Below are positions 14,984-16,720 of a stretch of 64,000 bases of DNA, piece by piece (position 1 is the first letter of the stretch; every line of letters starts with the position of its first letter). A program made the position numbers and the translations under genes. The stretch comes from Candidatus Saccharimonadota bacterium (GTDB lineage Bacteria > Patescibacteriota > Saccharimonadia > Saccharimonadales > Saccharimonadaceae): positions 546,494 to 610,493 of the forward strand of contig JAUCSC010000001.1 of the NCBI GenBank assembly GCA_030445265.1. Direction: 5' to 3'. A model generated the notes under the pieces. That model ran no database searches, was not told where the DNA came from, and worked only from the letters and a program-made list of their open reading frames with translations.

Positions 14984-15877
14984 TTATTTTTTCACAGCGA
15001 CACGGAGCTTGCTGCTCCGGGCGCGCGGATTGTGAACATCTTCGATATCTCCGTGAATCGGCCGTTTGGTCAGTGGAGAGAGCTCAGCTTCAAGACCATT
15101 GTCAAACTGCTCCTTAAAGAAGTGTTTCACAAGGCGATCCTCGAGGCTATGGAAACTGATCACCCCTACCCGGCCGCCGCTACTAAGCAGCTTGGGAATA
15201 ATAGTGAGAGTCTCCTCTATGAGCCGTAACTCGTCGTTGACGGCGATACGGAGGGCTTGAAAGGTACGCGTCGCCGGATGAATACGTTTCATCGGGCCAC
15301 GAACAGTGTGCTTAATCAGTTCGGCGAGTTCTCCGGTTGTATTGAGTGGCCGTCCTCTCACGATTGCGCGAGCAATTGCTTGAGAAAGCTTGACCGGCTC
15401 TTCCCCATACCGAGCAATGATATCGGCAAGCTCCTTCTCGGAAGCTTTATTGACCAACGTATGTGCAGTCAAAGACTGCCTCTGATCCATCCGCATATCA
15501 AGCGGTCCGTTGTGGGAAAAAGAAAACCCTCGTTCGCTCTGATCGAGCTGTGGTGATGACACCCCCAGATCAAGCATGATCAGATCGAAACGGTTACCCG
15601 CTTCTGCAAGCTGACGAGCAGCCGACAGGAAGTCGGTATGTAATAACCGCACGCCCTTCTCTTCAAGATCAGATAAATGCCGCAAGGCATTTTCGTCTCG
15701 ATCGATGAGGACGCTTCCGCTGTAATTTCCAGTATGCGCAAAAAAAGCCCGGGCATGTCCGCCGTAACCGGCCGTCATATCAAGATATGACTCACCTGTT
15801 TTTGGGGCGAGGAGCCTGAGACTTGCTTCGAGCAGAACGGGAACATGTTGTTGTGGTGGATGTTCTTTAATACTCAT
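14984..15877 (-). CDS. rsmH: 16S rRNA (cytosine1402-N4)-methyltransferase RsmH
   Basis: Methylates N4 of C1402 in the 16S rRNA decoding centre using S-adenosylmethionine. The N-terminus HVPVLLEASLRLL, the SAM loop YLDMTAGYGGHARAF, and LIMLDLGVSSPQLDQSERGFSF, DMRMDQ, are standard RsmH/MraW signatures; the C-terminus has GVISFHSLEDRLVKHFF. Length 297 is typical. ATG 15877 has AAGGGAAG just upstream. It is the second protein gene of the dcw operon, separated from mraZ by a 345-base structured region. Confidence 0.97.
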   Translation of the reverse strand: MSIKEHPPQQHVPVLLEASLRLLAPKTGESYLDMTAGYGGHARAFFAHTGNYSGSVLIDRDENALRHLSDLEEKGVRLLHTDFLSAARQLAEAGNRFDLIMLDLGVSSPQLDQSERGFSFSHNGPLDMRMDQRQSLTAHTLVNKASEKELADIIARYGEEPVKLSQAIARAIVRGRPLNTTGELAELIKHTVRGPMKRIHPATRTFQALRIAVNDELRLIEETLTIIPKLLSSGGRVGVISFHSLEDRLVKHFFKEQFDNGLEAELSPLTKRPIHGDIEDVHNPRARSSKLRVAVKK

Positions 15878-15934
15878 TCTTCCCTTTCATACTACCATAT
15901 CCCTAAAGGGAGCTGGAGGATGAGACGGTCGATT

Positions 15935-16169
15935 CGAGATCACCTAACTGATAGTTAAGCTGTTTGTTTTCGCATGATGTTTGTTTTAAAGGTGAACGGC
16001 TGGTATTTAGGGGGTTACTAGTGTAACTCATACCCTATCAGCCGCTCAAGTTGAGAGACTTATGTGTGTGAGGTGGAGTTTTTTTGGGAGGTGTGTTTTT
16101 GGAAGGTACGTCGGAATGTTTAATGTGTTTCCGTTTGACCACTGCCTAACTACCAGATAGTTGATCTCG
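15935..16169 (-). ncRNA. Candidate structured RNA between mraZ and rsmH
   Basis: The 345 bases between mraZ and rsmH hold no gene but much RNA structure on the transcribed (minus) strand. Arms at 15935-15962 and 16142-16169 form a 28-position closing helix in which 23 positions are Watson-Crick and two more become G-U only when read as minus-strand RNA, giving 25 of 28 pairs. Inside are a three-part hairpin at 15997-16044 (CGGCTG/CAGCCG, TAGGG/CCCTA, GTTAC/GTAAC with a 4-base loop) and a CGGAA/TTCCG hairpin at 16112-16133. Between them is an unpaired C/A-rich linker with CACCTCC (16087-16093), identical to the 16S anti-Shine-Dalgarno core. I do not recognise it as RNase P RNA, tmRNA, SRP RNA or a known riboswitch. 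An mraW leader motif is known in actinobacteria at the same gene position, but likeness is not established. Confidence 0.6.
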
Positions 16170-16222
16170 AGAGTTTTCTGTTGAAGTCGCCGAATTGTCA
16201 AAGTGCTACGGAACGGGTTGCC

Positions 16223-16600
16223 TTACATTTCCGCGTCAGGTGCCATCAGACGGAAATAGGATCCTGCTCGTACGGCCACGATGTCTTTCGTGATACCAGC
16301 ATAATCCAACAAGTGCTGCTCAAACGTTACACGACCTTGTTTTTGATCGAGCTCCGTCTCTGTTTTGCCGCGGCGGAACTGGACGTTGAGGTCAGCAACA
16401 GTTTCATCGAGAATACTATTGCCGTCGTTCAATGCTGGTTCGACCTCTTTGTCCCATACGGACAGCGGATAGAGATGCAGGTACTTGCCGAAGCCGCGCG
16501 TCACCACGATTCCAGATGCAAATTCGGTTCTGAGCTCGGACGGGATGGTGAGTCGCCTCTTCTCATCGAGTCTTCGTTCAAAATAATCTGTACTGGCCAT
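16223..16600 (-). CDS. mraZ: Transcriptional regulator MraZ
   Basis: DNA-binding regulator of the dcw operon made of two AbrB/MraZ-type swapped-hairpin repeats. Visible are FERRLDEKRRLTIPSELR (residues about 7-24), the first MraZ repeat with its DxKxRLxIPxxLR motif, and a second repeat ending KQGRVTFEQHLLDYAGITKDIV. Length 125 is somewhat short of the usual ~145 and fits small genomes. It is the first gene of the operon and its own GTGGG-repeat operator lies upstream, so autoregulation is expected. Confidence 0.92.
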   Translation of the reverse strand: MASTDYFERRLDEKRRLTIPSELRTEFASGIVVTRGFGKYLHLYPLSVWDKEVEPALNDGNSILDETVADLNVQFRRGKTETELDQKQGRVTFEQHLLDYAGITKDIVAVRAGSYFRLMAPDAEM

Positions 16601-16683: not shown

Positions 16684-16720
16684 AATATACTACCCACTTT
16701 TACCCACTACAACCCCCATT
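16684..16720 (-). promoter_or_regulatory. mra box: three 10-base MraZ operator repeats over the mraZ promoter
   Basis: On the minus strand GGGGG, GTGGG and GTGGG follow one another at an exact 10-base period (plus-strand blocks at 16691-16700, 16701-16710, 16711-16720). MraZ is known to bind TGGGN direct repeats with 5-base gaps, which is this spacing. The repeats fill the spacer between a candidate -35 (TTGTAG, 16707-16712) and -10 (TATATT, 16684-16689) 17 bases apart, so bound MraZ would block polymerase. Confidence 0.8.

Follow-up and report, generated by a model that had tools for sequence, protein, structure and literature searches.

The gap between two dcw genes, which we take from sequence knowledge to be mraZ and rsmH (mraW), encodes a structured RNA whose reality is confirmed far beyond chance. 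We consider it probable, on balance, that this is an independent non-coding RNA of the Saccharimonadia class (Saccharibacteria) that probably acts in trans and is made by an rRNA-like route, with a core partner that phages also exploit. The window analysed here is a stretch of 64,000 nucleotides inside a single-contig genome of 645,641 bases, and the mraZ-rsmH gap occupies 345 bases of it (15878-16222), with no second copy in the same genome. The features of the locus, listed in the direction of transcription, are:

16223-16600, minus strand: mraZ, an open reading frame with homologues 5′ of the RNA in most loci
16194-16206, minus strand: boxA GCACTTTGACAAT, a NusB/S10-type site, 24 nt 5′ of the RNA
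15935-16169, minus strand: the structured RNA, 235 nt (homologues 203-304 nt; fold z = -7.6; covariance model R1)
16144-16169, minus strand: closing helix P1, 5′ strand, with two-sided changes in 24 of 24 pairs among 99 homologues
16112-16133, minus strand: hairpin P2 (CGGAA...UUCCG), with two-sided changes in 5 of 5 pairs
16101-16109, minus strand: M1 GUACCUUCC, a boxA-like half site G[UC][AU]C[CUA]UU
16086-16094, minus strand: M2 ACACCUCCC, unpaired, including CACCUCC (CACCTCC, 16093-16087), which equals the 16S anti-Shine-Dalgarno core
16068-16079, minus strand: M3 ACUCCACCUCAC, unpaired and almost invariant
16053-16063, minus strand: M4 AUAAGUCUCUC, unpaired and almost invariant
15992-16050, minus strand: variable hairpin P3, from the fold and from pairing in homologues
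15961-15987, minus strand: M5, two AAAACAAACA stretches, unpaired
15935-15960, minus strand: closing helix P1, 3′ strand, carrying a conserved UAGGUGA (AGGUG at 15941-15945)
15889-15897, minus strand: candidate rsmH -10 box TGGTAGTAT, weak in this genome and proposed from the enriched boxes of relatives
14984-15877, minus strand: rsmH (mraW), an open reading frame whose homologue lies 3′ of the RNA in host loci with room

By eye, TGGG repeats 5′ of mraZ (window ~16690-16720) resemble the MraZ binding boxes of the dcw promoter.

A preliminary description of this gap had argued that it is not a gene and that its pairing is unlikely to arise by chance, and both arguments held. No open reading frame of at least 60 aa runs along the gap, and the variable lengths of the A-run and linker break any reading frame, so that coding on either strand was rejected. 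The minus, transcribed strand of 15935-16169 folds at -64.1 kcal/mol, a stability equalled by none of 200 shuffles, while the plus strand gives z = -3.5. Each of the parts anticipated from the sequence, namely the closing helix, a small hairpin, a larger and variable one, and the C/A-rich linker that contains CACCTCC, is present in the minus-strand fold, in which the linker and the neighbouring A/C-rich stretches are unpaired.

Comparison with related genomes, proposed earlier together with Infernal and Rfam searches, revealed compensatory changes throughout. In stored alignment A3 of 99 homologues, which is biased towards the model and with which slid and shuffled controls and an independent MAFFT alignment agree, 95.2% of paired cells hold standard pairs (74.4% when shuffled, 29-48% when slid), two-sided changes occur in 36 of 36 pairs, including all 24 closing pairs, and double-changed cells number 735 as compared to 197 ± 18 after shuffling. 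The covariation score for the 99 homologues was 0.595, against 0.056-0.134 with the 3′ strand slid. The independent MAFFT alignment, containing 29 sequences, showed two-sided changes in 22 of the 36 pairs. The most conserved part is the unpaired core, composed of GYACCUU, ACACCUCCC, a variable A-run, ACUCCACCUCAC, AUAAGUCUCUC and the two AAAACAAACA stretches. Some members carry hairpins inserted between CUCAC and ACAUAAGUC, with the flanks undisturbed.

The RNA is distributed throughout the class. Covariance model R1 matched 270 of 295 Saccharimonadia genomes, a blastn search with the element matched 91 of 101 relatives, and homologues in named records belonged to Saccharibacteria or to unassigned or Patescibacteria metagenome-assembled genomes (MAGs). 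It is essentially single-copy in host genomes; an apparent second copy (G310) was explained by a contig break inside the RNA. A mobile element or repeat was likewise rejected, given the single copy and the shared locus of all homologues. The order mraZ, RNA, rsmH is kept, and the RNA still lies 5′ of rsmH where mraZ was undetected. The gene rsmH follows the RNA in 113 of 120 stretches from GTDB genome records, and the remaining seven stop ~40-400 bases past the core, with rsmH beyond view. Deep relatives may be without M2 or without most of M3, and never both among those examined. For example, one genus of many species and no mraZ (g2) retains ACACCUCCC and AAGUCUCUC, and other families of the class retain ACUCCACCUCAC. 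In a phylum sample, covariance-model matches outside the class were weak, and the six inspected had no rsmH or mraZ nearby by blast; we discarded them as likely chance matches.

The family is uncatalogued in Rfam release 15, in line with the earlier failure to recognise it, and the covariance data would suffice to build an Rfam family. Across the whole window no Rfam model matched at gathering thresholds, and a search of 951 nt at the locus with E<=10 returned two unrelated chance matches only. Covariance models for tmRNA, 6S RNA and SRP RNA had no match at the locus, RNase P RNA was rejected because a separate RNase P RNA is present in 15 of 15 relatives tested, and a description of the RNA was not found in the open PMC literature. 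As a separate observation, the SRP RNA model RF00169 matched 0 of 16 genomes, and a structured intergenic stretch (CCCTTTAACC...CCAGAGGAAGTCTGG...GGTTAAAGGG) lies on the plus strand of this genome at ~544,600-544,700 (L002), ~1.8 kb outside the window. This stretch could be a divergent SRP RNA, and it contains CCACCTCACACAGATAAG, resembling M3-M4.

The boxA just 5′ of the RNA, an addition to the preliminary description along with the class-wide distribution and the phage copies, is shared by most relatives. Matches to the type GYWCNTTRACAAT at 12 or more of 13 positions occur in 81 of 99 loci, as compared to 4 of 495 shuffled, at a median of 25 nt from the RNA in relatives and often a few nt to a few tens of nt from the end of mraZ. 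The source genome is an incomplete MAG with no 16S on its contig; boxA was compared with the rRNA leaders of relatives, where the same motif is present 5′ of 16S in 8 of 8 (11-13 of 13 positions). In two relatives that were read directly, the rRNA-leader boxA adjoins the inverted repeat flanking 16S. With its boxA and a long closing helix around a structured RNA, the mraZ-rsmH locus therefore repeats the rRNA leader layout. M1 itself repeats the first boxA half, down to its degeneracy, and is perfect in 82 of 99 homologues against 10 of 495 shuffled. In nine genomes tested (G000, G012, G017, G030, G038, G050, G095, G102 and G140), NusB was found in all and the Rho RNA-binding domain PF07497 in none, the control search having worked; bacteria of this class thus seem to lack Rho. 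A boxA-like TTCTTTAACAA also occurs between tRNA genes of this genome, in the tRNA-Leu region at ~245,300 on the minus strand.

In scans of IMG/VR, the unpaired core (GYACMTT...ACACCTCCC-An-CTCCACCTCACACATAAGTCTCTC) was found on 13 distinct viral contigs (L293-L297, L300, L306, L316, L330, L333, L336, L343 and L374; L391 is nearly identical to L374, and the two were counted once). Eleven of the 13 have PHROG matches to terminase, portal, endolysin, primase or FtsK-like/exonuclease genes, the hallmark match of L293 being weak; L295 and L333 had no hallmark match among the proteins scanned. Neither rsmH nor mraZ was found on five viral contigs tested. In the phage elements the parts still follow one another as hairpin, M1, M2, A-run, M3 and M4, with AAAACAAA in some, and M1 is recognisable; these elements have no closing helix, and in the folds of L343 and L293 the core is unpaired between hairpins. 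Sigma-70-like promoters accompany L293 (TTGACC-16-TATAAT), L296 (TTGACA-18-TATCAT), L295 (TTGACT-17-TACTAT) and L333 (TTGACT-17-TACACT), and an intrinsic terminator is predicted at the element in L293, L297, L316 and L343. The adjacent downstream genes of L295 and L297 point towards the element, which is therefore not a leader on these contigs. Distant relatives of one of the phage terminases were found in 14 of 393 class genomes, suggesting that Saccharibacteria are likely the hosts of the core-carrying phages. Most of L301-L344, which matched the pattern ACACCTCCCAAAN{0,8}CTCCACC, proved to be an unrelated viral contig family and were discarded, and a search of annotated phages gave no match.

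The preliminary description had offered two options, an attenuator or leader of rsmH and the division genes, or an independent RNA. The occurrence of the core in phages, apart from rsmH, favours the latter. The analysis established the structured fold and its conservation, the single copy, the boxA, the lack of Rho from the tested genomes, and phage copies with promoter- and terminator-like sites; the processing, trans action and nature of the partner are our inference, as follows. Transcription of the RNA would take place within the mraZ-rsmH unit or, after loss of mraZ, from a promoter of its own. Its transcript would enter an rRNA-like route at the boxA just 5′ (NusB/S10) and would likely be trimmed at the long closing helix. 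This helix and two or three hairpins may then hold open the C/A-rich, almost G-free and nearly invariant strand M1-M5, to which a conserved partner would bind; a protein, or the transcription or ribosome machinery, is the most likely candidate. The stand-alone phage copies would imitate or titrate the RNA. Counting against an independent RNA, the element keeps its place before rsmH almost without exception, as a cis element would, the UAGGUGA in P1 may serve rsmH as a Shine-Dalgarno sequence in some deep lineages, and no conserved mRNA target emerged in the two genomes compared.

A cis-acting rsmH leader is the first alternative to weigh. On sensing a ligand or protein, the closing helix would gate the UAGGUGA Shine-Dalgarno sequence or read-through, thereby setting expression of rsmH and the division genes. 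All host loci with room have rsmH 3′ of the RNA, and in several deep lineages the conserved UAGGUGA lies ~8-11 nt before the rsmH ATG, so that an additional cis role is possible there. However, the distance from the RNA end to the rsmH start has a median of ~33 nt and reaches 208, and the phage copies lie away from rsmH without the closing helix. Furthermore, relatives carry -10-like boxes 4-13 nt before the rsmH start and 3′ of the RNA, scoring at least 6 in 26 of 89 cases as compared to 7 of 445 shuffled. These boxes are consistent with leaderless starts, and because in many relatives the rsmH promoter sits 3′ of the RNA, the RNA is more than a mere leader of rsmH. The attenuator proposed earlier was not supported. 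No intrinsic terminator was found between mraZ and rsmH, so that read-through is expected and an intrinsic attenuator was rejected, and with Rho in none of the nine genomes a Rho attenuator or rut site was set aside as unlikely. Altogether we regard a cis-acting leader as unlikely, if still worth holding in view. Among the 666 called ORFs of this genome, TATAA k-mers are strongly enriched just before start codons, beside AGGAG, and leaderless starts seem common in it, the picking of starts being partly circular. In addition, long-gap members of the genus (L008, L009, L011, L018 and L036) share an inverted stretch, GAGAAATYTCGA...TTTTGAGAAATTGA...CGAGATAT, between the RNA and rsmH.

M1 and boxA would make NusB/S10 the best named candidate for the partner, and we raise, as a speculative and on balance unlikely reading, that the class-wide RNA is a trans-acting regulator of Nus/rRNA-type transcription machinery operating without Rho, which the phage core mimics would hijack. 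The more specific proposal, in which M1 is a second boxA-like site through which the RNA and its phage copies bind NusB/S10 and tune rRNA-type transcription without Rho, appears doubtful to us. It draws on the shared degeneracy of M1 and boxA, the retention of M1 in phage RNAs, and the presence of NusB where Rho was not found, but in most members RACAAU, the other boxA half, is missing from M1, and M2-M4 are left unexplained.

The preliminary description had also suggested that CACCTCC binds Shine-Dalgarno sites. In this reading the RNA is an anti-Shine-Dalgarno sRNA that, in the manner of cyanobacterial Yfr1, would repress translation by pairing of CACCUCC/CUCCACCUC with Shine-Dalgarno regions in mRNAs. 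The identity of CACCUCC with the anti-Shine-Dalgarno core stands, and the ultraconserved unpaired ACUCCUCACAC of Yfr1 resembles ACUCC-ACC-UCACAC (PMC2190773). The pairing itself was not supported: at orthologous starts, neither the duplex energies nor the lengths of conserved complement, computed for two genomes with simple start calls, exceeded those of shuffled cores. The core did slightly prefer ribosome-binding sites over coding regions, with 3 of 40 shuffles as selective. We therefore consider this reading improbable. Extended pairing, examined for 16S, 5S and a minor part of 23S, yielded only short, unconserved matches, and a match between GCACCUUCC and h45 was short, with its second half not kept. 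Since pairing with mRNA or rRNA is unsupported, a protein or machinery partner is more likely.

Least credible is autoregulation by RsmH through mimicry of the 16S decoding site (C1402 region), a very remote prospect: by eye ACACACCUCCC resembles 16S ACACACCGCCC and UCAC and AAGUC occur in A-site order, but across the order (AAAACACCUCCC) the extra matches are not conserved, M2 or the AAGUC of M4 has disappeared from deep relatives, and the core is present on phage contigs without rsmH.

Overall, an undescribed structured RNA on the dcw strand with compensatory changes has survived from the first interpretation, and attenuation and Shine-Dalgarno pairing were not supported. Saccharibacteria depend on hosts, have reduced genomes and possess few recognised regulators. 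An RNA present in more than 90% of class genomes, outside Rfam release 15 and copied by phages as a stand-alone gene is a candidate central regulator, and the family offers a handle on phage-host interplay in these bacteria. An rRNA-type boxA where Rho was not detected makes the role of Nus factors without Rho directly testable.

Several known systems resemble parts of this RNA. The mraW RNA motif of Actinobacteria (RF01746) is also a structured element just 5′ of rsmH/mraW, but its own covariance model gives no match here at E<=10 (951 nt). It belongs to Actinomycetales, in another phylum, and we know of no phage copies of the mraW motif. The present RNA was found only in Saccharimonadia among the genomes searched (one phylum sample without Actinomycetales). 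The Corynebacterium motif measures ~105-110 nt, as compared to 235 nt here, and lies wholly or largely 5′ of the mapped mraW transcription start (PMC5784534, PMC3890552). The lysM-TM7 RNA (RF03005) is an Rfam-listed structured RNA of the same genome, unrelated in sequence and place. Leaders of the boxA/Nus-factor type (rrn, suhB) share the boxA just 5′ of the RNA, in a motif matching the rRNA leaders of relatives, although the body of the RNA is, to our knowledge, unlike any known nut or rrn leader. In E. coli, Nus factors bound at boxA act on suhB as well as rRNA, with the involvement of Rho (PMC5725501), whereas Rho was not found in the genomes tested here. Finally, the Yfr1/Yfr10 sRNAs are near-universal in their cyanobacterial lineage and carry an ultraconserved unpaired C-rich motif between hairpins. 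Yfr1 pairs with mRNAs near start sites and has an exact unpaired motif between two stem-loops, a length of 54-69 nt and a 3′ terminator (PMC2190773). The core here instead reads ACUCCACCUCACAC within 235 nt, in another context, with no terminator on the host copy and no Rfam match. Yfr1 appears to be the closest known RNA in behaviour (PMC2190773, PMC6974561), and the Saccharimonadia RNA, differing in defining motif and size, is not a Yfr1.
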